A DNA stretch of 64,000 nt, taken from NCBI GenBank assembly GCA_025765615.1, contig JAIVFJ010000225.1, positions 1 through 64,000 of the forward strand, in the 5' to 3' direction. Below the pieces are notes generated by a model. It was not told the origin of the DNA. It made no database searches and was given only the letters and a program-made list of their open reading frames with translations. Shown here piece by piece: positions 559-41,750 of the stretch. Position 1 is the stretch's first letter. Every line of letters starts with the position of its first letter. A program made the position numbers and the translations under genes. The stretch comes from Zopfochytrium polystomum. Taxonomy: Eukaryota; Chytridiomycota; Chytridiomycetes; Chytridiales; Chytridiaceae.

Positions 559-3500
559 GTGCGGACTTCAATGCTCGCGCCAAAAGAAAAAACGATATTT
601 AAATATGAGGCTTTTGGTTTGACAAGAAGAAGACTTGGATGGCACCCGACGAGGTCGCGAGGTCGGTTTCCTTGTTCCTGCAGGATAGTACACTCCTATG
701 CCCGACTCTCCACGCGGCCGAATGATTTGCCAGCAACAGGCGCTCTCCTCACCCAGCAACCCAACAGCCGGGTGGCCGCACTGCTCGATAATACCCCCAA
801 CCAAACCAACCAAAGAGCTTTCGTTAAGAGTACTAATGGACACTGTTTCGTTGCGACGACTAGGTCAGCCTGCCTCGCTGCGCTGCCACCTCTCGTAATT
901 TGGGCGATCGCAAACCATTTGGTGAGCCAAAGCGCGCGGCGCCGTCATTGCCTGTTTCCAGTTGCTGACCGGAAACGCGGGGCCGCCCCAGGTCCACAGA
1001 GGCCAACCGCGGCAATTCAGAGGAAATCCTCACAGAAACGAACTCGGAACGACGGCGATTACGAAGATGTCGACGATGGCGAGGTTCGTGGCGATTGCGC
1101 GAGCGACGATAGCGACGATGACGACAATGATTCCAGTCGCCGAGATGGATCTCTTCGATTGAGATCTTTGCTGTCCCTGGCCTCGTCTTGCCGGGGTCTC
1201 TGGACGCTCCTCGCCGCCACCCCACGGATCATCACAGACGTGCCTTTCTCGATGCCATTCTTGTTAAAGGCGCAGCTGTGCTTGCTCACTGGCAGTCAGG
1301 CGCAAAGCCGTTCGCGGTCTCAATCAATAACTGATCGATTCACGCATGCCACCGCCAGCGCACTCTGCCGCGCAAGCCGGTTCCCAGCCTGTGCCGAGTC
1401 CGTTTTCAAGACACTCGCCCACAGCACATCGAGCCTGCGTCCACCTTCAAACAGAGAGGTCGCGTCACTGATGTCCCTCTCCAGCCTGCTGGATTACGCT
1501 CGCTCGATTCATTCACAGGGAATGTCCGCGCTCGAAGTCGCGGCGTCTTGCGGCAATCTTGCAGCCTGCCGCGTCCTCGTTGAAGAGTGCGCGGTTCCCA
1601 TCCGCTCTGCTCCCACCGCGCGCTGGGACGCCCTGAATCTTGCGTGCCGGGGCAACCACGCCGACGTGGCCGAGTTCCTGCTCAGCCGCGGTGCCGACCC
1701 GCGGTGGTCCTCCTCGTTGCGACCGAACGGCCACCCTGGCGATCCAGTCGGACAGCGCAGTGCGATGCTCCGCGGACTGGACGAACGTTTCTGCCGGGAC
1801 CATTCCCTTGAGAAGCCAAGCCACGTCGGCATGACGGCGCTGCACTGGGCAGCGCACCACGGGAACCTGGTACTCTGCCGCAAGCTGGTGGTCGAAGGTA
1901 GTGCGGATCCTGATGCCATCAACCGCCTCGATGGTCGAACGCCGCTCCAGATTGCCGCCTTCAGAGGCCACGTCGATGTCATCGAGTTTCTGGGGCGAGA
2001 GGCCGGCGCCAACCCGAACCTGCCTCCCGCAGTCCCGCCAGACGTTCCTTGGAACATGGGTATGCACCCTCTATGCTCGGCGGTCGCCGGGGGCAATCTC
2101 GGCGCGTGCGTCGCGTTGGTCCATCTTGGCGCAAGCGCCATCGTGGCCCGTCACGAAAATCGGTCGCTGCTCAACGTTGCTATTGGCACGAACGCGCCCC
2201 TCGAGGTCGTCACGTGGACGTTGCAAGTCCTGCCACGAGAGATCGTCACGGCGAAGCGGTTTGGCAACCTTGCGATCCACACCGCAGCAATCGCCGGGCG
2301 CGCCGATATTGTCGAAGCGCTCCTCGCAACGGGCGACCCATTCCTTCCCGACGCTGTGAACGACGAAGGGCTCACGTGCGCCCACTTGGCAGCCGAGAAC
2401 AACTGGACAGAAGTCCTGGAGGTGCTCATCCGCGCCGGCGCGGCAGTGCACGTCGGGACCGCCACCGTTTCTCCACCGCTCATTACCGCGCTCGAACACA
2501 ACCACCGCGACATTTGCAAACTGATCCTTCAGCACCGTCCCGACGCCTCTCACGGGATCAGCATCTCCAAGCAGTCGACCCTGTCGTGGGCAACGGTTCG
2601 CGGGGACGTTGAACTCGCCGCGCTGCTGCTCGACGCGGGCGCGCCGCTCGACGAAGCCAACGTGAACGGCGACACGGTGCTGGACTACGCGATCGAGCAC
2701 AACCACCTGAACGTGCTGGAGCTCATCCTCGACCGCCGCCCCGACGCCGTCCACCTGATCGACCGCGACCGATGCTCCCCGCTCGGCGTCGCGGCGTCAA
2801 AAGGACGGCTCGACGCCTGCCGCCTCCTCCTCGCCCGCGGCGCGCCGGTGGACGTCCCGCACCACACGGGCCCCGCCGTGTTCGTCTGGCCACCGCTGTT
2901 CAAGGCGGTCGTCCACGGCAAGACCGACGTGCTCGCGCTCCTCCTGACGGCTCACACAACCTACCCGTGCGTACTCCCCGCAGCCACCGAACAACCGCCC
3001 TCGTCCTCCTCCACCGACCACCAGCGTCCGCCGCCAGACCTGCGGCGCCACCCGCGTCTCGCCCCGCTGCTCGCCGCAGCCGCGCAGCAGGCGGACGCGG
3101 TGACGCTCTGCGCGCAGCTGCTGGCCGCCGGCGCGCCGCTGGACGAGCGCGACGAAACGCGCGGCGGCGCCACAGCGCTGCACTTTGCTGCGGCCGTCGC
3201 GGTCGGCGGCGGCGGCGACGGCGGCGACGACGAAGACCCGCTCGTCGCGCTGCTGGCCGACGCGCACCTCTCGCGCAGGGTGACGATCGATGGGCGCGCG
3301 TCGCGCGGGCGGACGCCGTTGCACGTGGCGGCGGTGGTGGGGGCGGCGGGCGCGGCGCGGGCGCTGGTGCGGCGGGGAGCGGACGTGGGGGCTGTGGATG
3401 CGGATGGGGAGACGCCGGTTGCGTTGGCGCGGGGGCGCGGGTGGGGCGCGGTCGTGGGGGTGCTGGAGCGCGCCGCGGCGGCGGTGGGTGCGGTGGGGGA

Positions 3501-3588
3501 GGCGGGTGAGGGGAACGGTGAGGATGGTTGGGAGACAGATGAGGGGGAGGAGGGGGAGGTGGGGGACGCGAGCGTTGGGGTTTCGTAA
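559..3588 (+). CDS. F-box/ankyrin-repeat protein
   Basis: A single open frame of 1009 codons. Residues about 320-975 hold some 14 ankyrin repeats, with readable units such as GMTALHWAAHHGN, GRTPLQIAAFRGHVDVIEFL and GRTPLHVAAVVGAAGAARAL. Upstream, residues about 104-120 (LAALPPLVIWAIANHL) and 201-216 (LRSLLSLASSCRGLW) look like the two halves of an F-box separated by an Asp-rich insertion. That would make it a substrate adaptor for an SCF ubiquitin ligase, with the ankyrins binding the target; this role is inference from family knowledge. The start is uncertain. An AT-rich TTTAAATA element sits at about 597-604, inside the first codons, so transcription may begin downstream and the true start may be a spliced exon or a later in-frame Met (1252 or 1471). 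The last 300 bp become strongly G-rich. The final codons are repeated at about 11108, at the edge of a segmental duplication. Confidence 0.75.
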   Translation: MRTSMLAPKEKTIFKYEAFGLTRRRLGWHPTRSRGRFPCSCRIVHSYARLSTRPNDLPATGALLTQQPNSRVAALLDNTPNQTNQRAFVKSTNGHCFVATTRSACLAALPPLVIWAIANHLVSQSARRRHCLFPVADRKRGAAPGPQRPTAAIQRKSSQKRTRNDGDYEDVDDGEVRGDCASDDSDDDDNDSSRRDGSLRLRSLLSLASSCRGLWTLLAATPRIITDVPFSMPFLLKAQLCLLTGSQAQSRSRSQSITDRFTHATASALCRASRFPACAESVFKTLAHSTSSLRPPSNREVASLMSLSSLLDYARSIHSQGMSALEVAASCGNLAACRVLVEECAVPIRSAPTARWDALNLACRGNHADVAEFLLSRGADPRWSSSLRPNGHPGDPVGQRSAMLRGLDERFCRDHSLEKPSHVGMTALHWAAHHGNLVLCRKLVVEGSADPDAINRLDGRTPLQIAAFRGHVDVIEFLGREAGANPNLPPAVPPDVPWNMGMHPLCSAVAGGNLGACVALVHLGASAIVARHENRSLLNVAIGTNAPLEVVTWTLQVLPREIVTAKRFGNLAIHTAAIAGRADIVEALLATGDPFLPDAVNDEGLTCAHLAAENNWTEVLEVLIRAGAAVHVGTATVSPPLITALEHNHRDICKLILQHRPDASHGISISKQSTLSWATVRGDVELAALLLDAGAPLDEANVNGDTVLDYAIEHNHLNVLELILDRRPDAVHLIDRDRCSPLGVAASKGRLDACRLLLARGAPVDVPHHTGPAVFVWPPLFKAVVHGKTDVLALLLTAHTTYPCVLPAATEQPPSSSSTDHQRPPPDLRRHPRLAPLLAAAAQQADAVTLCAQLLAAGAPLDERDETRGGATALHFAAAVAVGGGGDGGDDEDPLVALLADAHLSRRVTIDGRASRGRTPLHVAAVVGAAGAARALVRRGADVGAVDADGETPVALARGRGWGAVVGVLERAAAAVGAVGEAGEGNGEDGWETDEGEEGEVGDASVGVS

Positions 3589-4231
3589 CTGGTGTGCCCC
3601 CTGTGTGAATATATCATGTTAGATAACAGGCCACTTCCTTCTTCACCTCTTCTGTTCTTTCCACTGTGCCCTCGCTCCGGCAGCCAAGTGGTATCAAAAC
3701 AATCGCGAAAGCTCTGGTAAACGGGCGCGGGGCGATGATGTGCGGCGGGGACCATTGCGTCTGGTGTTATTCCTTTCAATCAATGAGCAAGAAAGGGACA
3801 AGCACGCTTCTCCGAGAAGTGACAGGAGAACCAATAGACCGTCGTTGATAGGGATATTGATACGGTGGTAATCTAAGAATGGATAGGCGGAGGGGGCGCA
3901 AATGATACATTGGTCACTGGCCGTTAAACCGTCAACGACGAAGATTGTTGAAAGGGTGAGGTCGAAGAAAGCCATAGAATGATGACCAGACCGATTCAGC
4001 ACGAAACGACTGAAAATAGGGATGAAAAGGGAAAACGTAAAACGCCGCAGGGTATTGATATGGGATAATAGGATGATAAGAACGAAACAATTCGAAAGCA
4101 AATGGATGCATGCACCATATTCTAGATGAGTGAGGATAAGAGAATAAGAATGGGCAATAAATGTAAGAATATGAATGTGTTTCGACAGGGGAGATCCCGA
4201 ACGGTTCCTTGAGAAATGAGAGTAAACGCAG
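3589..4231. other. Intergenic 3' region, start of duplicated segment A
   Basis: No gene seen. The stretch 3690-3850 is clearly similar to 11275-11450: both contain caagtggtatca, the block tggtgttattcctttcaat, and caagaaagggacaa. It is the 3' flank of nuclease gene A and part of the segmental duplication. The sequence is more A/G-rich than the flanking genes. Confidence 0.6.
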
Positions 4232-6013
4232 CTAGGCTGTCACAGCGTTGGAGATCGGCACGAGCCCGGAGGAGAGAACATTTGAAGCGACGCCAACAAG
4301 CGCGGCGCCAAACAACTCTTCCCCGCGCGCGCTGAAAGGCGGACTGTTCGCGTGCAGGTGCACGTGCCTGACCGCATCGTCGTAAATAGACCGGACGGTG
4401 CGCGTGCTGCCGTAGAAGCTCTGCCGCTTCAAGTCGTCGTCGCTCATTCTGCGGAAACGCCCGGCAGCTTCGTCGAGGCGGTTTCGAAACTTAGCGATCA
4501 TCATTTTCTTGTTTTCCCAATACTCGAGGTTCCTTGTCGGCACCTCGGCCAAGCCGACCATCGGCACGTAGCGGGGCGACACGACGAGCATGGCGCCGTC
4601 GCCCGTTTTCACGGCGATGTCAAACTCGCCATCGTGTCTCGGCCTAGGTACGCATTCGAAGGACTCATCGGATCGCTTGTGCATGAGGAGCGCGGCGGCA
4701 ACCATTCCTTTAAACCCGGCGTTGTTCACGCCGTTCTTCCAAAAGTTGGTGCTGCGTTGGCGGGCGAGGGATTGCTTGCAGAGACGGCGGCAAATGTAGA
4801 GTAGCTCGTCTACCCTGGTGCGGCCACGAAGCGGCACGGGGGCCTCAGGGCTGGCGACGGGTAGGGCAGAGAATCTGGCGGCATCACCTTCTCGAGAGTC
4901 CGCCGTTACGCCCGACTTGAAAAGGTTGCTGGAGACGCCAATGACCACCGTGCAGTGCACGTTCCTTCTGTCAAACTGAAAAGGGAGCGAGTGGCCGTCG
5001 CCGTTGCGGAGAACGGAGACGTATTCCAGGACCTGATGAAGTGCTTCCTTGAAAGTTTTGGCAACCTTGGTAGTCTTTCGCTCCTTGCGGGATTTCTCGG
5101 TTTTCTTAATGAGAGTCCAAAACTGGGATTGCAAAAAGGTAGGTCCCACGCTTTTGAATCGGGAGACCACCGATTCCAGCTCCCTCAAGTTTGAAATGCC
5201 TTCCCCGCCGCGCACTCCAATTGATCGATAGTCAACGCCGACGATGTAGGGAGTTTGTATGTACTTGAACTCAATGACTCGTACGTCGCCGTCTTTGCCC
5301 ACAATCGCCAGGTCGGCGTACTTGCCACCGACCGTAATTTCCGAGTAGACCTGTTCGTCGGGAGCCAAGAGCGCCACGACAGCCATGGTAAAGATAGCTC
5401 CAAACGAGGCCTCGTTCAACCCGCCCCTCCAAAAGACTTGGGCCGGCAGATTGGCCACGGTGAGCTTGGTTAAAGCGCAGGCCTGGTCGAGAACCTGCTC
5501 TTGCCTTTCGATGCCGCGGAGCGGTTTGGACTCGGCATCAAGGAGTGGAGGACTCTCAAGAGTTCGTTCTTGAACGTGATCGGCGCGGCCGCTGCTGCCG
5601 ACCGGAGTAGCCGCGAGAAAACTTGCGTTTGGAGCGCTAGCCTTGATCTCCTCCTTCGGTGCTGTGGGGCGCTGTGGGGAAGGAGGAGGGGTACGCAGAC
5701 CGTGGGCAGAGGACGCGCGGGTTGGGCTGAATGTTGGTGGAGTGAACAATGAGGGCTGCGTTAGACGTGGTTCAAATAGGAGTGAGAAACGGGGTTGGAG
5801 TGGAGGCCCTTCTACGATGCAGCCAGTCGGCTTGAGGTTGTGGGATGGGTTGAAACGGGGAAGGAAAACGGTAATAGAAAGAGGCGGGGGTAAGAGAGCG
5901 GCACCGACATGAACGCAGAGCACGTATATGGGGAGTGAACGATCATTTACAGCATGATCAAGGTTTCGGGCGTCCCTCGTATGGCAGTGAGGAAAGTGTT
6001 GCATGGCCTCCAT
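4232..6013 (-). CDS. Tandem PD-(D/E)XK nuclease-like protein, copy A
   Basis: An open frame of 593 codons. Residues about 194-370 form a PD-(D/E)XK restriction-endonuclease-like domain, with candidate catalytic residues E225 (QVYSEI), D234 (GGKYADLAIVG) and E248-x-K250 (VIEFKY). Residues about 423-587 repeat the same plan: FWKNGVNNAGF mirrors FWRGGLNEASF, FDIAVKTGDG mirrors ADLAIVGKDG, and GVASNVLSSGL mirrors GVSSNLFKSGV. In this second half E-x-K is replaced by S-P-R (residues 479-481), so it should be catalytically dead. The family resembles nuclease domains abundant in chytrid and other eukaryotic repeat-rich proteins. Function (DNA cleavage, element defence, or mobility) is not shown. The first about 95 residues are Pro/Ser-rich and not shared with copy B, so the true start is uncertain and may lie in a spliced exon. 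Paralogue: 11768-13243. Confidence 0.7.
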   Translation of the reverse strand: MEAMQHFPHCHTRDARNLDHAVNDRSLPIYVLCVHVGAALLPPPLSITVFLPRFNPSHNLKPTGCIVEGPPLQPRFSLLFEPRLTQPSLFTPPTFSPTRASSAHGLRTPPPSPQRPTAPKEEIKASAPNASFLAATPVGSSGRADHVQERTLESPPLLDAESKPLRGIERQEQVLDQACALTKLTVANLPAQVFWRGGLNEASFGAIFTMAVVALLAPDEQVYSEITVGGKYADLAIVGKDGDVRVIEFKYIQTPYIVGVDYRSIGVRGGEGISNLRELESVVSRFKSVGPTFLQSQFWTLIKKTEKSRKERKTTKVAKTFKEALHQVLEYVSVLRNGDGHSLPFQFDRRNVHCTVVIGVSSNLFKSGVTADSREGDAARFSALPVASPEAPVPLRGRTRVDELLYICRRLCKQSLARQRSTNFWKNGVNNAGFKGMVAAALLMHKRSDESFECVPRPRHDGEFDIAVKTGDGAMLVVSPRYVPMVGLAEVPTRNLEYWENKKMMIAKFRNRLDEAAGRFRRMSDDDLKRQSFYGSTRTVRSIYDDAVRHVHLHANSPPFSARGEELFGAALVGVASNVLSSGLVPISNAVTA

Positions 6014-6450
6014 GTGATGTACCCCAAAAATGAGGAGGAGGGGAGAAACAGGAGCGAAGTGGCGCCTCTGATTGGGCGTGAGAGGTCGTGAGCTTACCTG
6101 GCGGAGCGATCATGGAGCATCGCAAGGGCGGGAGTGGGGGAAGAGGGCGGGTGGGGGTTAAGGGGGGGGGGGGGGGAAGGGGGGTTGAAGAGAGCGAGAA
6201 ACGGCACCGACATCGATGCAAAGAGGTACAAGGAGATGGAGAGCGTATCATTCACAGTATGACCAAGGGGTGTGGCCCTTGCATTGTGGCGGGGGGGGGG
6301 CAGTGACCAATCACGGGGTAACATGGCCTCCAGGTTTTGTAACGGCAGAGGTGAAGAAGGAGGGGAGAAGCAGAGCGAGGGAGTCTGTGAGGTCGTGACT
6401 TCACCTGGTGGAGCGATCATTGGGCATCGCACCGTCCGTTTTGTCTGTCT
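5885..6450. repeat. Tandem duplication upstream of nuclease gene A
   Basis: Two diverged direct copies of about 250 bp lie head to tail, at roughly 5885-6135 and 6185-6435. Shared landmarks are aacggcaccgacat-type text (5908 and 6201), a gtatcattcacag-like block, catggcctcca (6002 and 6322), gaggggagaa, and the block ggagcgatcat followed by gggcatcgc or gagcatcgc (6103 and 6411). Copy B of the locus has the region essentially once. It overlaps the 5' end or upstream region of gene A and could carry regulatory sites. Confidence 0.6.
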
Positions 6451-7534
6451 CGCGGTTCCCAACGGTCGACATGGCGCGATCTTTGCAGTGAGTTATGCAG
6501 GGAGTCTAAGAATCGAAGAGATCGAAAAGGGGAGGGACTTGGGAGGGGTCTATTGGGGAAGGCTTGCAGGGAGCTTGCTGAGGGAAGTGAGTGGGGCGGG
6601 TGGTGGGGTGAGGGCGAAGCTGGCTGGCGGCGATGGAGAAGAGGAAGATGGAAGGAAGGAGGGCTGAGTGGTTGTTCGTCTTCTTCTTTTTTCTCTTTGT
6701 GCGGGGGAACGAGCAGGAGGGACGCGCTGCCATCCTTAAATATCGATTCTCGGTGTTGTCCGGGGTGTCCGTTTATCTGGTTCGGACGTGGGTGTCCAAA
6801 ACGGAGGGTTGGTTTGGAAGGACTTGACATGGTAGGCGGAATCCAATGGAATCCAATCGAATCCAACCTCCCTGAAAAGTATTGTTGTAACCCGTCCGCC
6901 GAGCAGAGAAATCGAGCCGAGTAGACGATTGCTTCGATGCCGCGAGTAGTTTGTTGTTCGACACGGGCCCATTTCTTCTTTGGCACATCGTCATTGCCCT
7001 TTTTTTTTCTTCACGAATCGAGTATTTACTTCGCGAACATAACGAACTGCGTTGGATAAAGGTACTGAGCCCGAGGCCGTTGACAAAAGGCGGCGATAGC
7101 CGGAGTGGTGGCTCGAGTGCGCAATCAGCAGTTGAGTGGGGGACTGTGCAGAGTGGGCTGTGGACCACCGCCGCCGTGCCGCAAGGGCGGCAGGGTTAGA
7201 ACCGAGCGGCGGTGTGGGCTGTCTTGTAGAGTGGAGGTCCCCGTTCAAAGCGACAAGATGTTGAAACAGTCCTCTCTTTTACGCGCGGACGCTCTACTGG
7301 CTAGCCCGTTTTGCAATTTGGAGCTCAACCGCGTCAATAGATACGTCGGGGAAGGGTGAATATCGGCCAATATTAATATTTAAAAAAAATTTTCCACTGA
7401 GCTGTCCATCCCATGGGGGCGGACGGTGCACCTTCTACTCGGCATCAATCAACCTTCTACAGCCCCGTCTAAGCCCCAAATCGATAGAATACGGCGACAT
7501 TCAGGCCCTTCTCGTGTCGTATCGGTATCGGGTG
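6436..7534. other. Intergenic region upstream of nuclease gene A
   Basis: The block 6425-6500 (caccgtccgttttgtctgt ... tttgcagtgag) and the block 6660-6850 are shared with copy B at about 13690-13770 and 13930-14050. A cttaaata element at about 6734 corresponds to ctttaaata at about 13985; on the minus strand these read TATTTAAG/TATTTAAAG and could be TATA-like elements. From about 7000 to 7534 no coding signal was seen. Confidence 0.4.
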
Positions 7535-7934: not shown

Positions 7935-8853
7935 GCCCGACACATAGTCGACAATTATTAGAAATATTGCCGTGATACCAATAAATCTCGGAAAATCAGT
8001 GCTATCACCGTCGGGACCCATCGGCTATGGCCCGTTTTCCAGATCGCTATCGTGTAAGGATTATCGCGATATGATGGATGCGATGTTATAAGCTGCGGAA
8101 TATCGATTTGCCCCGTCGACGGGCCGCCCTAAATTAGTGGTAGCACTTACAGTCTTTTCCAGCGACTGGTTTGGTTTATTGTGCAAGCCCTCTGTTGGCA
8201 GACCAATTTTGAAAACATTGACCCAAAACGTCGTTCGCGATCGTCTCGTCCGAAACCTGCAAGGGTTGATTCACGTGGTGAGATGTGAATCGCAAACATG
8301 AACGATCAAGGACTGGTGGAAGGTTGCTCACGACCATTCATCTCCTTCCAGACAAACAGTTGTTTTTCTTTTTGGAAATGGAAATTCACATTTGTAAACC
8401 AAACCGAGGCCGTGATCACTGATGATGAGCACACTGAAAGCCGCAGATGGGAGGGAGTCCCGCCAAAACGCGGCCGCGAGGGGGGTGCGATCCGCAAAGG
8501 GGCCGCGTGTATCGAACGCGTCGTCACTCACCCTCCTCCCATTTATGGAAACAGATAAAGGCGCAGCACGTGCGAAACAAAGTCGGAAGCAAATGACGGA
8601 AAAAAAGAAAGAAAAGAAAAAAAGAAAAGACTCCACCCACGTTCAACAACAATCCGCTTGAGAAAGTATATTTTGTTTGTTGATTGTTGGTGCAAACAAA
8701 CACACCCAATTTGTTTCCTCCAATTTTCTTGATATTCGCAATTTGCGGCGGCGTGACGGAGTCTCGGGACTCATTCAATCGCCGTTTTCCGCGGTCGGCA
8801 AACATAAATACATTCTGTTTCGTGTGAAATGAAGCAAGCAAGCAACCATGCAG

Positions 8854-10972: not shown

Positions 10973-11767
10973 TATTATGGATTGGCGTGAGGGGAGAGGG
11001 GCGAGGCGGAGTATGTAAAAAGGGAGATTGTGCTTCCTGCATCGGCGGCTTTTCGCACGCTTGCTCGGTTTCTTTTCACTTTTTTGGTTTTGCTTAAGAC
11101 ATACACGGAGGTGGGGGAGGCGGGCGTTGGGGTTTCGTAATTGGTAGGGCTACCCGCAACATGAGCTTGATAACTATATTATAAGATGACAGGCCACCAA
11201 CTGCCTTCTCCACTTGTTTTGTTCCATTTCCGCGCCCTGCTATCTGCCTAACTCACCAAGGGATGTCGGGGTCGCAAGTGGTATCATTACAATCGCGAAA
11301 GCGCTGGTAATCAAACGGGCGATGATTTGCGATAGGATCCACGGGGCGTGGTGTTATTCCTTTCAATCAATGGACAAGAAAGGGACAAACAGGCTTCTTC
11401 CAGAAGAGCCACAGAAGAGAAGAACCCAGTGGACCGTCGCAAGGGTATTGATATGGCGAGAGTCTAATTCATAGAGCGTCGAGGGGGAGCAGGTAAAGCG
11501 GGAGGAAACGCATAGAATGTGATTCTCGCACCAATAGCAGTGTGAGCGTTGAAAAGAGTAGCAGGATGGATGCGGAGGGAAAGGAGGTATTGATATGGGG
11601 AGTCTGAAATGAAAATACCGCGCGGACGAAAGCAGGTAAACCTCCGTGCGCCTCCGGCACTGAAAAGGGTAAGGGGAGGACGACGAAGCCACAAACAAGG
11701 ACCAGATATCGACGTGCGGGGTAAGGGTGAATAAAATGGATGATCAATATCAGAGAGAGCAATGCTG
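10973..11767. other. Intergenic 3' region, start of duplicated segment B
   Basis: From about 11105 the sequence matches the end of the ankyrin gene and its 3' flank (ggtgggggaggcgggcgttg here, ggtgggggacgcgagcgttg at 3558). It continues with the shared block at 11275-11450. No gene supported. Confidence 0.6.
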
Positions 11768-13243
11768 TCAATCCGACTTGACCCAAAGCTCGCGGTGAAG
11801 GATGTTCGATGCCACGCCGACGAGCAACGCACCGAACAGGCGGTCGTGTCTCACGTCGAAAGGAGGTCTAAGCAGGTGCCAATTGACCGTGCAGTCGTAC
11901 TCAACTAGCCCGGAAAGCTCGGTTTGCTCCAAATCGTCATCATCCATCTGACGAATACGTTCCGCAGCCTCGTCGAGGGCCATTCTGAAGTCGTGGACGC
12001 GGTAGGGGTCGTTCTCGAGCGACACGAGGTTCTGGTTTGGTATATCGTGCAAGCCAAAGTACCGCGACGCGACGATAAGCACGTCTCCGTCGCTGGTTCT
12101 CACGGCCATATCGAATACGGGGTCCCTTCTGGCCAACCGACGGACGGACAGTACGTGCTCGTCGTTGCGCGTGTTCATGTGAAGCGCGGTTGCGATCATC
12201 CCTTGAAAACCGGCGCGGTTCAGGCCGTTGCGCCAGAAGTTTGTGCTGCGGAGCCGGGCGAGGGTTCGTTTGCAGTGGACGTAGCAGAGGAGTCGCAGCT
12301 CCCGGAATCGATCGCGGCCGCGGAGCGGCACGGGGGGCATGGGGCGGGCGACGGGTAGGGCAGAGAATCCGGCAGCGTCAATTTTTAGAGGCTCCTTCAT
12401 TACGCCCGACTTGAAAAGGTTGCTGGAGACGCCAAAGACCACCGCGCAATTCACCTTTCTACGATCAAACTGAAAAGGGAGCGACTGGTCGTCGCCGTTG
12501 CTTAGAAGGGAGGCATATTTGCGCACCTGATAAATCGCTTCCTTGAAAGTTTCGTCAATCTTCGTAGCTATTTCCTTCTCCGTGGATTTCTCAGTTTTCT
12601 TAATGAGAGTCTCCCCCATTGTTTCCTTGGTTTTCGTAATGAGAGTCCAAGACTGAGATATCAACGAGCGTGGGTCCATGTTTCTGAATCGGCCGACCTC
12701 CGATTCCAGCTTCTCCAAGTTTAAAACGCCTACTTCCTCGCGTCCGTCAACTAATGCGCAAGCCACGTCCGCAATGTAGGGAGTTTGTATGTACTTGAAT
12801 TCAATGACTAGCACGCCGCCGTCGTTGCCCACAATCGCCAGGTCGGCGTACTTGCCACCGACCTTAATTTCCGAGTAGACCTGTTCGTCGGGAGCCAAGA
12901 GCGCCACGACAGCCATGGTAAAGATAGCTCCAAACGAGGCCTCGTTCAGCCCGCCCTTCCAAAAGACAGGACCAGGGAGAATGCCTAAAGTGAGCTTGAT
13001 GACGGCGCAAGCGCGGTCGCGCAATTGCTGTCGCCGTTCGAGGCCGCCGAGCGGTTTGACATCAACCGATGCATCGAGGCGCGGAAGAACCGGGTCGGAG
13101 CGGCCACTGCTGCCGCACGGGGCCACCTGGAGGCTTTTCTTGATGTCTTCCCTTGGCGCGATGGGGCGCTGTGGGGAAGGAGGAGGTGTACGCAGGCCGT
13201 GGACAGGGGAGGCGCGAGTTGGGAGTGTGGAGAATGAGGGCAC
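11768..13243 (-). CDS. Tandem PD-(D/E)XK nuclease-like protein, copy B
   Basis: An open frame of about 490 codons, paralogous to 4232-6013. The first domain keeps E125, D134 and E148-x-K150 (QVYSEI, GGKYADLAIVG, VIEFKY) and differs from copy A at about 5 of 63 residues. The second domain (FWRNGLNRAGF ... FDMAVRTSDG ... IVASRY ... GVASNIL) has lost the catalytic E and K and is far more diverged from copy A. A 30-40 bp tandem duplication (about 12597-12650) has lengthened the charged linker after the first domain. No ATG precedes the conserved Met in FGAIFTMAVVALL; the frame opens with GTG at 13243. The real start is therefore in an upstream exon, or the gene is decaying. The Pro-rich HGLRTPPPSPQRP segment is shared with copy A. 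Confidence 0.65.
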   Translation of the reverse strand: MPSFSTLPTRASPVHGLRTPPPSPQRPIAPREDIKKSLQVAPCGSSGRSDPVLPRLDASVDVKPLGGLERRQQLRDRACAVIKLTLGILPGPVFWKGGLNEASFGAIFTMAVVALLAPDEQVYSEIKVGGKYADLAIVGNDGGVLVIEFKYIQTPYIADVACALVDGREEVGVLNLEKLESEVGRFRNMDPRSLISQSWTLITKTKETMGETLIKKTEKSTEKEIATKIDETFKEAIYQVRKYASLLSNGDDQSLPFQFDRRKVNCAVVFGVSSNLFKSGVMKEPLKIDAAGFSALPVARPMPPVPLRGRDRFRELRLLCYVHCKRTLARLRSTNFWRNGLNRAGFQGMIATALHMNTRNDEHVLSVRRLARRDPVFDMAVRTSDGDVLIVASRYFGLHDIPNQNLVSLENDPYRVHDFRMALDEAAERIRQMDDDDLEQTELSGLVEYDCTVNWHLLRPPFDVRHDRLFGALLVGVASNILHRELWVKSD

Positions 13244-14715
13244 TTTGTTAGACGTGGATCAGTTCGGAATGAGAAAGGAGATAAGAGTAGACGCCCTTTT
13301 ACGACAAAGCCAGTCGGCAGTCTTCAGGGGGTTGGTAGCTGGGGAAAACGGCGGGGGGAGTAGAGGTTGTGGGATGATGGGTGGAACTCGAGAAATGGCA
13401 GGATAATAGAGAGAGGAGGGCTTGGGCGAAGACCGGCACCGAATTCGAAGCGAGCGGTCATTTACAGTTTGGGCATCCCTCGCGATGTATCGAGGACAGT
13501 ACGTGCCGCATTGCAGCCATGTATTGAAGGTAAAAGTGAAGGAGAGGTGACAGGCAGGAGCGAAATGGCGCCTCTGACAGCGAGTGGGCGTGAGAGATTG
13601 TAAAATTATCTGGTGGAGCGATGATTGGGCATCGCAAGGGCGGGAGGGGGGAGGGAAGGGGGGTTGGAGGTCGTGACGTTACGGCGATCACTGGGCACCG
13701 CGCCGTCCGTTTTGTCTGTCGCGCGGTATCCAGCTGTCGACATGACGTGATATTTGCAGTGAGCGATTCAAATAGTCGAAGGATCGGAGAGGATCGAGAA
13801 CAGAGGAGGGAGTAAGGCGAGGGGGAGGGAGTGAAGGGGGGGTTGGGGGGCGGGTCGGGACGAGACTTGAGCGACGAAGGATACGTGCAGGAGGGGGGGG
13901 GAAGCTGGCGAGCGAAGGGAGAGCGGGTTGGATGTTTGTTTTTTCTCTTTTTTTGGGGATGGGAGAGGGCGGAGCAGGCGGGCTCTTTAAATACGGATGG
14001 GTTTTGGTTCTTTGTCCGGTCCGTTCTCTCTGGGTCCGAGAAAACGGACTAAAGCAGCCTTGAAAATGTTTCGGGGGGAGCAAAAAAAAGTTTTCGATTG
14101 GGGGGGTGGTCGGTCTCCATTTCGGGGTGGTCTGTCTCCAATAGTGAAAAGTTTTTTTTGCCCTCCACCAAACTTTTTTTTTGCTGCCTCAAAATCTCAA
14201 GGTATATGAAATTAGTAAGACATATTCGTCATTCACTCACCAAAAAAAAAAAAAATCCATCAAGAAGCGGAGTTTCCTGTTTATCAGACAGTGTTAGGAA
14301 GACTTGGATTAACGGGGCTCCGATTCGTCTATCTGTTCCAAGGACGCCAATGAGGGCCGAAAAAGAACCAATAGTGTGCCGTCCTTTGTTTGGACCCTGG
14401 TACTGGTGACGGGGCTCAGGTCGGATCCCATCGCGGAACCGGACGGAACGCGGTTTGTGTACCGCTCTCAGTTGCACACACACACACACACACACACACA
14501 CAGGAGACCTCTCTCTCTCTCTGCCCCCTCCGTCCCCCTCGCTTCCATTCAACTTTGACGGCAGCGGATAACCGGGCACCAAGCAAGGTACAAAATCGTA
14601 ACAACGGAAAATGCGCGTCGCGTCAACCGCGGACCCCACTATTTCTTTCTTGGCGTGTCGCAACACATAGTACCCCGCGGGCCGACTGTTTTGCCTTTCC
14701 CCTCACCGAGCTCGC
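13244..14715. other. Upstream region of nuclease gene B and intergenic sequence
   Basis: 13300-14050 is the counterpart of the copy A upstream region. It holds the ggagcgatgattgggcatcgc block at 13615, ccgtccgttttgtctgtc at about 13706 and ctttaaata at about 13985. After 14070 the similarity stops. A CA repeat occupies 14475-14501 and a CT repeat 14511-14523. No gene supported. Confidence 0.45.
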
Positions 14716-29029: not shown

Positions 29030-32000
29030 TTAGGGAAGAAGGAGATGGGAACGAAGCAAGGTGAAGGAGTCAGCTGGAAGGGGCTTTGTGAGGATGTCAG
29101 CGACCATCTCCCGAGAGCGGAGATGCTGGACGTCGATGATGTGCTGCTGTACCTTTTCACGGATGAAGTGATGGCGAATGTCAATGTGCTTAACCTGATT
29201 GGAAAGCTTCTGGTTCTTGGCAACGGCAATGGCACTGCGATTATCTTCGTAGATTATGGTTGGACCACCAGATTGAGGCACACCAAGGTCAGACAGAAGT
29301 TGACGGAGCCAGAGGACTTCCTGTGTGGTGGAGGAGAGGGCCATGTATTCTGCTTCGAGTGTGGAAAGCGCAACAGTGGCCTGGACGTGACTGCGCCAGG
29401 AAATGGGGCGTAGAATTGAACAAAGCCTGTTGTGGAGCGGCGATCAGAGGCAGTGCCCCCAAAATCGGCATCGGAGAAGCTGTGGAGCGGTGGGCGTTGA
29501 AGGTTACTAGCGGTGGCAGTGGGTCCAGCATAGGCAAAGTGGCTGAAAGAGACAAGGGACTGGGACAAGGCAGAGTAGGTGATGCCGTATGGTAAGGTAC
29601 CACGGAGATAGCGGAGTATGCGTTTGGCAGCAACCCAGTCAATTTCAGTTGGGCAACTGAGGCGGCGACTGAGGCGGGCAACAGCCATGGAGATGTCAGG
29701 GCGAGTACCCAAGGAGAGATAGAGTAGACAGCCAATGAGTTCTGCAAAAGGCTCAGACGTAGGAGCGGAGGAGGGGTCTGGCGTATACGAGGTGTGCATG
29801 GGGGTGGAAACAGAGGCGCAGTCCGACATGCCAAAACGTTGGAGGATGGACTTAGCATAGCCAGTCTGATGAACACGCACGCGAGTGAGGTCAGGGGACT
29901 GCTCAATCTCGAGACCAATGAAGTAGCGGAGGAGGCTGAGATCTTTCATGCGAAATCGGGCGCGGAGGGCGTCCTTAATTGCGGAGATTTCAATGGAGGT
30001 TGATCCAGCAATAAGGAGATCATCAACATAGGCTACAATGAAACTCTTGAGACCGTCGCGAACACGAACATACACACACGCGTCTGCCGGGGAACGAGTG
30101 AACCCAATAGACTGGAGATAATCATCCAGAGTCTTGTTCCAGATGTGAGGTGCCTGCTTCAGCCCATACAGGGAACGTTTAAGCTTCCAGACATGATCGA
30201 TTTTTCCAGGGGCAACGTGACCAACAGGTTGCTCAATGTAAACGTCGCGGTCAATGGGTGCATAGAGGAAGGCAGTAGTGACGTCCATGTGGTGGATGGC
30301 GAGGCGCTCGCGAGCACAGACAGCAAGCACACTGCGAATGCTGGAGAGTTTTGCAGTTGGGGCAAAAATGTCGCCGAAGTGGACGCCAGCGACTTGCCAG
30401 TAACCTTTGGCAACAAAACGCGCTTTATACCGTGTGGGGCAACCATTTGCGTCTCTCTTGATCTGAAATACCCAGCGTGAAGGGAGGACAAGAGTGTCAA
30501 ATGGGCGCGGGACGAGGTCCGCGACGTCGTTTTCCCAACAGGAGGCAAGTTCCTCCTCACAGGCAAGCCGCCACTGCTCCGCATCGGGTCGACTATTGCA
30601 GTCCCGTACTGTTTGGGGATCGTCAGTAGGAGCTGTCTCAGTGAGCGCTCCGACAAGGTCAGACTCGACACATTCAAGGAGCGTCGAGGGGGGAGCCAAG
30701 GATGGTGACTCCTCCCAAATAAGTCGACTGAAAGTGGTGAGGAGCCCAACAAACAGGGAAGAACCAGAATCGTCAGGGACATACGGTTGACCATCAGGGC
30801 GGAGATAGTCCTTTAGGCGCGAGTTGGGTTGGCGAATACGGGTGGAGCGACGGAGTCCTGCAGCCATGGGAGGAGACTGCTGTTGACGTGTTTTTGGAGG
30901 CGGCAAACTGAGGGGAGGAAAATCAACATTGTAGTGGGATGGCAGAGGAGTCGGAGACAAGGGAACCACCGAGATGGCATCAGGTAAAGGCCGCTCAGGG
31001 GAAGGCGGGAGCGGAAAAAACGAAGGAGGAGTGGGCACTGCAGTAGAGAGGGAACGGAGGAGTGACATGGGAGAGGTAGCAGTCGAGGATGCGGTGGGGT
31101 CAGGTACATCTGTAGCGGTAGTGTGGGGGACAACACCACAGTCTGAGAGAGGCATCGACGAGTGAGTGGATGTGGGTGACAGTGTGAGTTCGTCAGGCAC
31201 CGCCGCTGGAGGTTCCGCTACTGGGATAGCAGGGGTGGAAGGAGATGCCAGGGGGGGGAGTGGAATGTGAAAAGGATAAATAGATGCGACAAGATCTGCA
31301 GGCAGCAGAGCGGGAGAATCAGATCCTGGTGGGCGAGAGGAGAAGAATAGTGAGGACGGATTAGAGGGCAGTTGAGGGTCGGAAGGGTCGAAGGTGTCCT
31401 CCCAGAAAATGACGTTTTGACTTAAAACTACACGGCCAGAGGAGAGACGAACACGATATGCCTTTGACTCAAGGTCGTAACCGACAAAGCGACCCTTTTC
31501 AGCCTTTGGGTGAAGTTTTGAGGCACGGTCGTCCTGAACCCGAATGGCAAAGCGACACAGCCCCAGGTGCGGAGGTGTGAGAGGTCAGGCTTGTGGCCGT
31601 GGATTTTCTCGTAAGGAGACTTTCCGTTGGCGCCAGGTAAGCGGTTGTGCAAGTAGACCGCTGTCATAATGCCTCTCCCCAAAGACTGAGTGGGGCGTGA
31701 GCAGCGTGTAGCATGGAGAGTGCACGTTCTGCAAGTGTACAGTTCATACGTTCGGCGACCCCAATTTGTCCGTGATGAGCAGCGCCAGGTGTTGCAAGTT
31801 GGTGTTCAATCCCAGCTTGACGTAAAGGAAGTCAGAAGTCGGACCCCATGTATTCGGAGCCCTGGTCTGAGCGAAAAACCTTGAGGGAATGGCCAGTCTT
31901 CTTTTTCATGATAGTGCGAAAATCCGCAAAGTGTGCATATGTGGAGGCAGATGTGAGCGACTTTTGAAAACACGCTCGGACATAGTGCGTTGCATCATCG

Positions 32001-36555: not shown

Positions 36556-37419
36556 ATGTCGTTCTCCATTGCCACCACAGTATGCGCCTACATGCCATCA
36601 CCGCGCGATCGCTTCCAGCTCGCATCGCTCGTCCGACTGCCTAACCTCCAGGCGCCGTCGCTTTTGCAGCACCTCTGCCCAAATCTCCACCTCGACGCCG
36701 TAAGGTCTGCCCCGATCCTCCGCTTCCTGCTGCAGCACCTGTCCCGATCGCGTATCAGCGAGCAGTTCACAGCAAAAGCCGTCGACCAGGCGCCCTCGGT
36801 CGAGGTCCTGCAGGTGTGGAAGGCGAGCGGCCTCGAGATGCGGTACACGCATCGCGCCATCCTACGGGCTTGCATTCGCGGGAGGATCGATGCTCTCCAG
36901 TGGTGGAAGGACAGCGGGCTGGACCTCCGCTACGACGAGGAGGCGGCCGACGCGGCGTCCAAGGCGGGTCTGACGGACGTGTTGCAGTGGTGGAAGGACA
37001 GCGGGCTCGCGTTCAAATACAGCCTGCGCTCGGTGAACGAAGCGAGCAGCTGTGGGCACGCGCACGTGTTGCAGTGGTGGAAGGACAGCGGGCTCGAGGT
37101 CAAGTACTCGCAGTGGTCTGTCGTCGCCGCGGCCTATGCCGGAAGGGTCGCGTGCTTGCAGTGGTGGCTGGACAGCGGATTTGAGATGCGTTGGGATGGG
37201 CTTTGCTTTCAGTATACGGAACATCGTCCGGTGCTCGAGTGGTGGGAGGAGCGTGGGCTTTATCGTCTATGGCGAGAGCGAGAACTGCCAAACGCGCGGT
37301 CTTTGCTCAAGGCGATGGTTGCAGAGAAGCAGTTTCAGCTGCGAAACGCAGCTGTTCAAGAATGGTGGTTGGAGCGCTGCAGGCGAGAGGAAGTGGATGA
37401 ACCAACCAAAAAAACTTGA
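36556..37419 (+). CDS. LQWWKDSG-repeat (ankyrin-like) protein
   Basis: An intronless 287-codon frame. From residue about 70 to 225 it consists of five or six units of about 30-33 residues of the form (V/A)LQWWKDSGLxxxYxxxAVxxASxxGxxx: LQVWKASGLEMRY, LQWWKDSGLDLRY, LQWWKDSGLAFKY, LQWWKDSGLEVKY, LQWWLDSGFEMRW and LEWWEERGLYRLW. The pattern is that of divergent ankyrin repeats seen in large lineage-specific families of zoosporic fungi and in some giant viruses; each unit should give two helices and a turn. The N-terminal 60 residues (LVRLPNLQAPSLLQHLCPNL) could be a degenerate F-box-like helix region. The role is probably protein binding; the partner is unknown. A broken relative lies at 17430-17905. 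The DNA repeats caagtggtggaaggacagcg-like text almost exactly, indicating recent unit duplication. Confidence 0.75.
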   Translation: MSFSIATTVCAYMPSPRDRFQLASLVRLPNLQAPSLLQHLCPNLHLDAVRSAPILRFLLQHLSRSRISEQFTAKAVDQAPSVEVLQVWKASGLEMRYTHRAILRACIRGRIDALQWWKDSGLDLRYDEEAADAASKAGLTDVLQWWKDSGLAFKYSLRSVNEASSCGHAHVLQWWKDSGLEVKYSQWSVVAAAYAGRVACLQWWLDSGFEMRWDGLCFQYTEHRPVLEWWEERGLYRLWRERELPNARSLLKAMVAEKQFQLRNAAVQEWWLERCRREEVDEPTKKT

Positions 37420-38087: not shown

Positions 38088-41000
38088 TCATCTCCCCCTT
38101 TTAGGCCTCTTCTGCAACTTGGTGGGGTACCTGGTCTTGAACTCGAGCAGAAGGTCTTGGCAGTGAGTGAGGTTTGACTCAGGCTCCCAGGTGTTGTCAG
38201 CATCTGAGTAACCTTTCCACTTAACAAGGAACTTGAGTGTTCTTCCAAACCACTTGGCATCCAAGATTTGTTCAACCTCAAATTCCTCTTCACCTTCTAC
38301 CTCAACTGGAGGAGGAGGAGGAACAACTCTGCCTGGAATGGAATTGGCCACAAACTTCTCTAAAAGGCTGACATGGAAAACTGGGTGGATCTTCATGGAT
38401 GCAGGGAGATCCAGCTTGAAGGTGACTGGATTGATTTGCTCCAAGATCTTGAAAGGACCCAACTTGAGGTTGTCTAGCTTGGGACTTGGTCTTTTGGTCT
38501 GCAAGTTCTTCCTCAGAAGCCAAACTTGCTGACCCACAGCAAGGTCATGGTCCATTCTGTGAGTGTTGGCAAATCTTGAGGCATCTTCTTGGGCTTGCTT
38601 CAGGGTGGAGTCCAGGAAGGAGTTGATGATCTTGAGCTTATGTAAGTGTGAAGCCGCAGCAGGAGCTTGGACATTGGATAGGGTCTCTTGTCCCAGAAGA
38701 TCTCCTCTTGGATTGAAGCCATAGGTTGCAAAGAAAGGAGATAGCTGGGTGCTTGAGTGGAGAGAATTGTTGAGAGCAAATTCTGCCAGTGGAAGGAGGG
38801 TGGGCCAATCATCCTGTTGATAGCTGACATAGCACCTCAAATACTGCTCCAGAGTCTGGTTTGTTCTTTCTGTTTGTCCATCAGTCTGAGGGTGATAAGC
38901 AGTTGACAGTTGAGACTTGATTCCAAGGGCTGCTGTGAGTGCTTTCCAAAATTGAGATCTGAACTGTGGTCCTCTGTCACTGACAATTGACTGAGGCAGC
39001 CCATGGAGCCTGAATATGTGCTGCAAAAACAGGTCTGCTGTTCCTTGTGCATCTATATTCTCAGTGCAGGGGATGAAATGGGCCAACTTTGTCCTTCTGC
39101 AGATGACAACAAGGATAGAGTCAAATCCATGGGATGGGGGCAGTTTCACAATGAAGTCCATGGATATTGATGACCAAGGGCTGATGGCAATTGGGAGGGG
39201 CTCCAGAAGTCCATAGGGCTTGTGTCTGCTGGACTTGTTTCTTTGACAGGTTTCACAGCTGCTGACATAGTTCTTGATGTACTTCCTCATGCCTGGCCAG
39301 TAGAAGTCTCTGGAAACAAGCTCATAGGTCTTGTGCTCTCCTGGGTGTCCAGCTGTTGCTGCATCATGCCTTGTCTTGAGTATCTCAAGTTTTTCCTCTT
39401 CTTGGCTGATTTGAATCTTGTGAGGCTTGGGGTCCTTGGAAATAGCATGGGCCCACACACTGTCAGGAAGCAATGAAAGGTGTGTCTTGGATGGTGGGGT
39501 GAAACCATCTCCCCCTTCAGGTGCAAGGTCTGTTCTTCTTGACAGGGCATCAGCCACAGTGTTAAGGTGGCCAGGAGAATAGCACAGCTTAAAGTCATAC
39601 TCAGAGAGCAGTTCAGCCCACCTGGCATGCCTCTGCTTGAGCAACCTCCTTGCCCTGAAGAAGGTGAGGTTCTTGTGATCAGAATAGACAGAGATGCCTT
39701 TAGAACCAGCCAAGTAGTGTCTCCAGAATTTGAATGCTTCCACAATTGCAAGCAACTCCTTGTCATGGACTGTGTAGTTACACTCAGCACTGTTCAGCTT
39801 CCTGGAGTAATATGCCACTGGATGCAGAGGAGCAGAGGGGTCCTGAGAGCTTGGCTGGGACAGAACAGCGCCAAGGGCATAGTCTGAGGCATCAGTTTCC
39901 AAGGTGAAGGGAAGCAAGGGATCCACATGCTTAAGGAGTGGTGCACTTGTGGTTGCTGTCTTAAGAGCTAGCCAGGCTTGCTCTGCTGCTGGGGTCCATT
40001 CAAACTTGGTGGTCTTCTTGGTGAGATCAGTGAGAGGCTTGGCTATGGCAGAATAGTTGGCAATGAAGGTTCTGTAGAAGTTGCAAAATCCAAGGAAGCT
40101 TTGAACATCCTTGATGGAATTTGGAGCCTTCCATTCAAGAATAGTTTGGATCTTGTCTGGTGCCATGGAGATCCCTTTGTCAGACACAATGAACCCCAAA
40201 AACTCAATGGAGGTCTTGTGGAATTCACACTTCTCCAGCTTTGCATAGAGGTGATGCTGTCTGAGTCTCTCCAAGACAGTCTTGACATGTCCCATATGGC
40301 TTGCAGTGTCAGATGAAAATACCAGGATATCATCCAGGTAGACAATGACAAAAAGGTCCAGAATATCCCTGAAGATGTCATTCATCATGCCTTGGAAAAT
40401 AGCTGGAGCATTGGTAAGTCCAAAGGGCATAACCAAGTACTCAAAGTGACCGTATTTGCATCTGAAGGCAGTCTTCCATTGATCCTGGGGCTTAATTCTG
40501 ACCAAATTGTAGGCACCTCTGAGGTCAATCTTGGAAAATATCCTTGCATGGCTCAGTTTGTCCAGTAATTCAGAGATGAGAGGCAGTGGATAGCAGTTCT
40601 TGACTGTCATCTCATTGAGATCTCTGTAGTCCACACAGGGTCTCAGTCCCCCATCCTTCTTCTTGACAAAAAAGATGGGAGCTCCAGCTGGTGACTTGGA
40701 AGGTTGGATGAATCCCTTGTTCAGCATTTCTTCAATGTATTCTTGGAGGGCCTTGGCTTCTGGTGGAGAGAGGTGGTACAGTGGCTTGAAAGGTGGGCTG
40801 CAAGTTTCATCCTTGAGTGGGATTTCACAGTCATAAGGCCTCTGAGCTGGTAGCAGGTCTGCCTTGGTCTTGGAAAACACATCAGCATAAGGGAGATATT
40901 CTTTTGGTAGCTTGGATGCCAGCAAAAGGTCTGATGGGTCCAGGTTGTCGTGCTCCTCAGCAGTGGGGCTTGAATTCTTGACTGGGAACTGTGATTCTTG

Positions 41001-41750
41001 AATCTTTGACTGAGAGTTCTGTTCTTGGCAAAGACTGTGAGCTGTGGAACTTGAATCTTGAATGTGGACTGTGAACTGTGGTACTTGAATCTTTGACTGT
41101 GGGTTCTGTGAACAAGAGTCATGGCCATGACTGTGAGCTCTATGAGCTCTACTTGAATCTTGACTGTGAACTGTGAACTGTGGAACTGGAGTCTTGGCTG
41201 GCTGTGAATCTTGAATCAAGGGCTTGAGAGCATGAGACTTGGGGGCTTGACTTGAGTTTTGGGTGACTGTTCCAATTGGTGGAGGTTGGACTTGACCAGT
41301 GACCCAATCAATGGCAGGGTTCTGGGCTTGCAGCCATGGTAATCCCAGGATGACAGAGAATGTGGGTGAGCCAAGATCCAATACTTCCAGATTGACCATG
41401 GATGGTGGAAAGTCTTGGATGTGGAGGTTTAGCTTGGTTTCATGGCTGATTTCCTTGAACAGAGCATGATTGGCAAAGTGGACCTTGAGGGGTGTGGATT
41501 TCTTGATCGTAGGAATGGCACAAGACTTGGCAAGGGTGGCATCAATGATGTTGCAGGATGATCCAGAGTCTATAAGGGCCTTGGTTGTGATGGTTGACTT
41601 GGGTGAGAGTTGAATCTTGACATCCATGGTGAGTTGGTGGGGCTTGGAATCTGAGGTGTTTGTGGTGCTGGTAGTGGTGATGAAACAGGGGCAGCTTGGA
41701 GGAGGGTCCAGGGAATTGCCCCTCAGTGAGCCTGGACCTGGGAGTTTGGG
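38088..41750 (-). CDS. pol: gypsy Pol (PR-RT-RNaseH-INT-chromodomain)
   Basis: Open from the gag overlap to the stop at 38088-38090, about 1220 residues without interruption. In order: aspartic protease ALIDSGSSCNIID; reverse transcriptase with LRPCVDYRDLN, FSKIDLRGAYNLVRI, MPFGLTNAPAIFQ and the catalytic VIVYLDDILVFSS; RNase H PFTLETDASDYALGAVLSQ; integrase zinc-binding AGHPGEHKTYELVSRDFYW...CETCQRNK; integrase core SMDFIVKLP, SDRGPQF and YHPQTDGQTERTNQ; and a C-terminal chromodomain (ILDAKWFGRTLKFLVKWKGY, then WEPESNL). The chromodomain places it with chromoviruses, which tend to target chromatin marks. It is made as a Gag-Pol fusion by -1 frameshifting at 41744-41750. The stop codon directly abuts the 3' LTR. 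All catalytic motifs are intact. Confidence 0.92.
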   Translation of the reverse strand, partial: PKLPGPGSLRGNSLDPPPSCPCFITTTSTTNTSDSKPHQLTMDVKIQLSPKSTITTKALIDSGSSCNIIDATLAKSCAIPTIKKSTPLKVHFANHALFKEISHETKLNLHIQDFPPSMVNLEVLDLGSPTFSVILGLPWLQAQNPAIDWVTGQVQPPPIGTVTQNSSQAPKSHALKPLIQDSQPAKTPVPQFTVHSQDSSRAHRAHSHGHDSCSQNPQSKIQVPQFTVHIQDSSSTAHSLCQEQNSQSKIQESQFPVKNSSPTAEEHDNLDPSDLLLASKLPKEYLPYADVFSKTKADLLPAQRPYDCEIPLKDETCSPPFKPLYHLSPPEAKALQEYIEEMLNKGFIQPSKSPAGAPIFFVKKKDGGLRPCVDYRDLNEMTVKNCYPLPLISELLDKLSHARIFSKIDLRGAYNLVRIKPQDQWKTAFRCKYGHFEYLVMPFGLTNAPAIFQGMMNDIFRDILDLFVIVYLDDILVFSSDTASHMGHVKTVLERLRQHHLYAKLEKCEFHKTSIEFLGFIVSDKGISMAPDKIQTILEWKAPNSIKDVQSFLGFCNFYRTFIANYSAIAKPLTDLTKKTTKFEWTPAAEQAWLALKTATTSAPLLKHVDPLLPFTLETDASDYALGAVLSQPSSQDPSAPLHPVAYYSRKLNSAECNYTVHDKELLAIVEAFKFWRHYLAGSKGISVYSDHKNLTFFRARRLLKQRHARWAELLSEYDFKLCYSPGHLNTVADALSRRTDLAPEGGDGFTPPSKTHLSLLPDSVWAHAISKDPKPHKIQISQEEEKLEILKTRHDAATAGHPGEHKTYELVSRDFYWPGMRKYIKNYVSSCETCQRNKSSRHKPYGLLEPLPIAISPWSSISMDFIVKLPPSHGFDSILVVICRRTKLAHFIPCTENIDAQGTADLFLQHIFRLHGLPQSIVSDRGPQFRSQFWKALTAALGIKSQLSTAYHPQTDGQTERTNQTLEQYLRCYVSYQQDDWPTLLPLAEFALNNSLHSSTQLSPFFATYGFNPRGDLLGQETLSNVQAPAAASHLHKLKIINSFLDSTLKQAQEDASRFANTHRMDHDLAVGQQVWLLRKNLQTKRPSPKLDNLKLGPFKILEQINPVTFKLDLPASMKIHPVFHVSLLEKFVANSIPGRVVPPPPPVEVEGEEEFEVEQILDAKWFGRTLKFLVKWKGYSDADNTWEPESNLTHCQDLLLEFKTRYPTKLQKRPKRGR
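41705..41750 (-). promoter_or_regulatory. -1 programmed frameshift signal in the gag-pol overlap
   Basis: On the minus strand, the gag codons CAC CCA AAC contain the canonical slippery heptamer C-CCA-AAC (41744-41750). After a 5-nt spacer (TCCCA, 41739-41743) comes a perfect 8-bp stem, GGTCCAGG (41731-41738) with CCTGGACC (41705-41712), and an 18-nt loop that contains the gag stop TGA. Heptamer type, reading phase, spacer length and frame direction all fit a -1 shift. Confidence 0.8.

Follow-up and report, generated by a model that had tools for sequence, protein, structure and literature searches.

The window analysed here is a stretch of 64,000 nucleotides from contig C225 (JAIVFJ010000225.1) in the 80.2-Mb assembly of the chytrid Zopfochytrium polystomum. 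It carries two tandem paralogous genes, referred to as gene A and gene B, whose proteins each consist of two related PD-(D/E)XK nuclease halves, the first with an intact catalytic motif and the second without it.

4232 to 6013, minus strand: gene A, an open reading frame (ORF) of 593 amino acids (aa); residues 118-593 are shared with the NCBI protein DFJ73DRAFT_793778 (481 aa).
11768 to 13243, minus strand: gene B, the tandem paralogue; NCBI DFJ73DRAFT_793779 is a doubtful 348-aa model based on the copy on contig C17, which from its sequence looks like a second haplotype.

The proteins of genes A and B are 61% identical. Gene A had been pointed out in an earlier note, made from the sequence alone, which stated no strand. 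Its residue numbering fits the 593-aa ORF, which is real and is read from the minus strand; in the opposite direction, 4232-6013 holds many stops. The halves of the two genes are placed as follows.

4898 to 5515, minus strand: gene A half 1 (residues 167-372), with an intact E...D...E-x-K...QxxxY motif.
4235 to 4837, minus strand: gene A half 2 (residues 393-593), of the same fold and keeping only D465 of the catalytic residues.
12398 to 13048, minus strand: gene B half 1, with the motif intact in the open frame.
11771 to 12331, minus strand: gene B half 2, dead, with V, D and A-S-R and without QxxxY.

Smith-Waterman comparison of first with second halves, using limits slightly wider than the residues given above, scored 80 for A1/A2, 96 for B1/B2, 104 for A1/B2 and 113 for B1/A2. 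Shuffled sequences gave means of 28.2-29.7 (sd 4.2-4.6), and in each pairing none of 1000 shuffles matched the real score, the top single shuffle for A1/A2 reaching 70. Aligning the two half-1 with the two half-2 sequences by hhalign resulted in a probability of 96.7 and an E of 3.5e-10 (one comparison) over 182 columns. A chance repeat is ruled out by the shuffles together with hhalign. Whole-genome searches with gene A half 2 as query recovered gene B half 1 (E 4.3e-6) and gene A half 1 (E 0.009); with gene A half 1 as query the matches were weaker (gene B half 2, E 0.0025; gene A half 2, E 1.2). At the sequence level, these comparisons demonstrate that the halves share ancestry. The structure model of half 2 displays the PD-(D/E)XK alpha-beta-beta-beta-alpha-beta core, with CinB/CidB as its nearest structural neighbours. 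No confident model was obtained for half 1, and its fold was assigned via its homology to half 2 in hhalign. The prediction of both halves together, made from an alignment with a fragment of the single-domain relative P0005 described below, had a pLDDT (predicted local distance difference test) of 41.3 and gave no reliable arrangement of the halves.

The columns of the catalytic motif could be located in both halves of gene A.

5339 to 5341, minus strand: codon of E225 (position by arithmetic on the ORF).
5312 to 5314, minus strand: codon of D234 (by arithmetic).
5264 to 5272, minus strand: codons of E248-F-K250 (by arithmetic).
5021 to 5035, minus strand: codons of Q327-xxx-Y331, a QxxxY motif as described for CinB in an excerpt of PMC12687446.
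4571 to 4579, minus strand: codons of S479-P-R481, which replace E-x-K in half 2 (from the motif columns).

The motif columns E225, D234, E248, K250, Q327 and Y331 of gene A half 1 correspond to V455, D465, S479, R481, H550 and H554 in its half 2, and to V, D, A, R, a gap and H in half 2 of gene B. Both first halves and P0005 carry all six residues (E, D, E-x-K, Q, Y), and half 2 retains only the D in two of two tandem genes. The acidic residue, D and E-x-K of a PD-(D/E)XK site are thus found in half 1 and not as a set in half 2. The C17 copies of genes A and B read identically to the C225 copies at the E-x-K site. These results agree with most of what the earlier note had claimed, namely two tandem PD-(D/E)XK halves (now resting on the sequence comparison, the half-2 model and the single-domain relative with the motif), a second half of the same fold that is catalytically dead, with S-P-R in place of E-x-K and D465 kept, and the same pattern in the paralogue at 11768-13243, where half 2 has A-S-R. 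The QxxxY, likewise kept in half 1 and lost in half 2, is an addition to the motif originally listed. Of the proposed common motif order, the repeat itself stood, but the FW start is not family-wide, as P0005 has LG at the FW position.

A relative with a single domain was found elsewhere in the genome.

C506:18520 to 19197 (locus L006:1486-2163), minus strand: P0005, a relative that has one domain and is intact; protein searches returned no NCBI protein matching it.

P0005 is about equally similar to the two halves of gene A (half 1, E 5.7e-9, 28% identity; half 2, E 1.4e-7, 32% identity), and matches gene B with E 3.6e-9 in half 1 and E 0.0072 in half 2. Whole-genome searches listed no second half in its vicinity. 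P0005 allows the doubled genes to be compared with an undoubled one inside the same genome. Protein searches at E <= 10, in each of which the 7992 to 7998 candidates with most shared words were scored, returned only two NCBI proteins of Z. polystomum and no relatives outside the species. Scans of GTDB genomes (54 pattern matches) and of viral contigs (92 pattern matches) gave no confirmed hit. So far, the family appears restricted to the species, and searches covering open-licence papers found no description of this particular protein family.

Between genes A and B, half 2 has a ratio of nonsynonymous to synonymous divergence (dN/dS) of 0.316 (bootstrap 0.17-0.53). The contrast between nonsynonymous and synonymous changes is significant (p 1.1e-9 and 3.1e-8) and holds with gap-adjacent codons removed. 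Judged from these codon substitutions, half 2 has demonstrably been under purifying selection between the genes. As both half-2 copies have the same losses, these would most simply predate the tandem duplication, and selection would therefore have acted on an already dead half.

This pattern bears on the possibility that half 2 is a dying remnant without a role, in a family undergoing birth-and-death turnover. Signs of decay do exist: the C17 copy of gene B has a 10-bp deletion within half 2, the copy of P0005 on contig C174 is broken over two frames, a further family copy on contig C9 (E 0.005) is decayed, and half 2 has diverged further between the genes (51% identity) than half 1 (67%). However, the dN/dS of half 2 is clearly below 1, its model retains the fold, and the gene A ORF differs between C225 and C17 at only one of 1782 bases (at residue 10, outside both halves), against 93 mismatches and 72 gap openings in the 10,042 surrounding columns (97.9% identity). 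We consider decay unlikely as the explanation of half 2.

The situation in half 1 is different, as its catalytic core is nearly identical between the two genes.

5249 to 5428, minus strand: homogenised tract common to genes A and B (residues 196-255), with limits picked after inspection of the data.

The longest identical run in the tract is 84 nt (5335-5418). There are 3 synonymous differences in 45.9 sites within the tract, 34.5 in 105.1 sites in the remainder of half 1 (p 0.0004 versus the tract) and 86.2 in 135.2 sites in half 2 (p 2e-12 versus the tract), both p-values being flattered by the post hoc limits. These counts are most simply read as gene conversion in the catalytic core. Synonymous differences are also scarcer in the remainder of half 1 than in half 2 (p 2e-6), and the exchange may thus extend past the tract.

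One observation weighs against an active half 1 with a supporting half 2: outside the tract, half 1 is weakly constrained (0.65, p 0.07). This would suit a protein that binds nucleic acid instead of cutting it, with neither half active or with other residues at work in half 2. We regard such a binder as very unlikely, as half 1 keeps all six motif residues in both open frames and in P0005, and the catalytic tract is the part that is near-identical between genes A and B.

Searches of family collections placed the protein only loosely. The best Pfam match of P0005 was PDDEXK_9 (PF08011; E 4.2e-4, 20.7 bits), which matched gene A half 1 with E 0.02 (15.3 bits) and in a six-frame search reached 21.8 bits at the place of P0005; all three remain below the curated cut-off of 25.5 bits. 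PDDEXK_9 was not listed at E <= 10 for gene B half 1 or for either half 2. Shedu SduA matched gene A half 1 with 15.8 bits (E 0.016), below its curated 27-bit cut-off. Pfam listed no MutH family at E <= 10, in a search whose HMMER filters discard most weak matches. For four proteins, PADLOC returned no convincing match (best E 0.03); NCBIfam gave no match, nor did PHROGs (best E 0.069). By sequence, the best profile hit in the PDB (E 0.047) covered a small part of an enzyme that is unrelated, and the best for P0005 had E 1.5. BFVD matches were weak, with none at or below 0.001 (best E 0.0048), and included several herpesvirus UL24 proteins and one phage PD-(D/E)XK nuclease.

The earlier note knew of no described family with this layout, which does not hold, as Sau3AI (excerpt of PMC548270) and CifB (excerpt of PMC11342252) are precedents. 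According to the former excerpt, Sau3AI carries a duplicated PD-(D/E)XK domain in one chain, and its C-terminal copy, devoid of catalytic residues, is an effector-binding domain. The chytrid protein resembles it in the doubled domain with a dead C-terminal copy. However, Sau3AI, a restriction enzyme from bacteria, belongs to the MutH lineage, and the likeness is one of layout. Wolbachia CifB proteins (CinB/CidB/CndB) are described as having active and dead PD-(D/E)XK domains in tandem, all dead in type I, with the active-site pattern E...D...E-x-K...Q (PMC11342252). The chytrid protein shares this pattern, the QxxxY found in CinB and CndB, and the nearest folds to half 2. On the other hand, CifB has four domains, of which the first and third are dead and the second and fourth active, while the chytrid genes have two each; CifB also comes from a bacterial symbiont and is paired with CifA. 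In the same excerpt, CR-REase7 (REase, restriction endonuclease) and CifB are given an H at the third residue past the active-site E, taken here as the E of E-x-K; at this site both chytrid first halves and P0005 have a Y (Y251). As for an adjacent cifA gene, no HEAT-repeat match was obtained at E <= 0.01 among seven chosen window ORFs scanned in Pfam. On the features compared, membership of CifB, PDDEXK_9 or Shedu fails, and the chytrid protein at most works like them. The pair seems to be an independent instance of the live/dead layout.

Eukaryotic CR/Crinkler effectors often carry a domain of the REase superfamily and have been reported from the chytrid Batrachochytrium dendrobatidis (excerpt of PMC5289972). 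A toxin or selfish element of CifB or Crinkler type would be a DNA-cutting effector with a DNA-binding dead domain, perhaps with an antidote. The CinB/CidB folds and the CifB-type motifs would fit it. So would the small size of the family, its restriction to the species, its broken copies and the conversion-like tract, a picture that recalls the recombination described for CIF loci. We nevertheless hold it to be quite improbable. The number of domains (two versus four), their order (active-dead versus dead-active) and Y251 speak against CifB; the REase of Crinklers is typically fused to a nucleoside triphosphatase (NTPase) or kinase behind a header, and neither enzyme was found in Pfam scans of the proteins, nor was a signal peptide or Crinkler header noticed in an inspection by eye. 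No antidote gene was seen among the seven window ORFs scanned. A related and comparably doubtful idea is an independently evolved, chromosomal fungal counterpart of the CifB live/dead pair, a DNA-cutting killer or genome-defence protein in which the dead half would target, conversion would keep the cores alike, and the diverged targeting halves (dS 1.4 between genes A and B) would diversify specificity.

The explanation we favour, with somewhat better than even confidence, is a small chytrid PD-(D/E)XK family near the PDDEXK_9 or CifB-type branch, in which the domain was doubled and the dead second copy kept as a non-cutting partner. An ancestral single active domain, similar to P0005, would have been duplicated within one gene, the C-terminal copy would have lost its catalytic residues while retaining the fold, and the whole gene would later have been duplicated in tandem, with gene conversion homogenising the half-1 core. 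Half 1 would act as a DNase dependent on Mg2+/Mn2+, and each chain would have a single active site. Half 2 could bind nucleic acid or an effector and thereby position or license half 1, as the inactive half of Sau3AI is described to do. The most likely mode of action is cutting at a single site in half 1 under the control of the dead half 2. The intramolecular dimer with a recognition half suggested in the earlier note is plausible, given that the dead half has been under purifying selection and that precedents exist. The biological role of the protein may be in genome defence, in a selfish or effector function, or in repair. The pair adds to Sau3AI and CifB a eukaryotic case of a nuclease domain that was doubled, with one copy disarmed yet kept. 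If the dead half does set specificity, nature would have run a retargeting experiment here, with the core homogenised and the second halves diverged.

Regarding the gene models, gene A may actually start upstream of the 593-aa ORF.

6407 to 6472, minus strand: possible exon 1 of gene A, MSTVGNRETDKTDGAMP..., with a putative counterpart, MSTAGYRATDKTDGAVP..., at gene B from 13743 downwards.

An upstream ATG and a conserved short peptide (MST-G-R-TDKTDGA-P) occur at both genes. NCBI uses the peptide as exon 1 for gene B but not in its model of gene A (P0003), which starts elsewhere and treats residues 1-117 of the ORF as noncoding. The NCBI model of gene B skips the site of the 10-bp deletion and also omits the QxxxY-bearing part of half 1, which is open in C225; a wrong intron could account for this second omission, though this is unproven. 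The tandem duplication appears to take in DNA flanking both sides of the genes, at about 3685-6525 and 11275-13825, in blocks of about 77-80% identity.

No convincing terminal inverted repeats of a mobile element were detected; gene A is flanked by just a 21-nt and a 14-nt pair, and a single pair of 19 nt lies near gene B. Elsewhere in the window, ankyrin-repeat proteins are encoded at 559-3588 and 36556-37419 (both plus strand), the second with a WWKDSGL-type repeat. An RVT_2-family reverse transcriptase, presumably Copia-type, lies at 29254-31200 (minus strand), and long ORFs at 38088-42646 (minus strand) resemble, by eye, a retroelement of the Ty3 type whose end is chromodomain-like.
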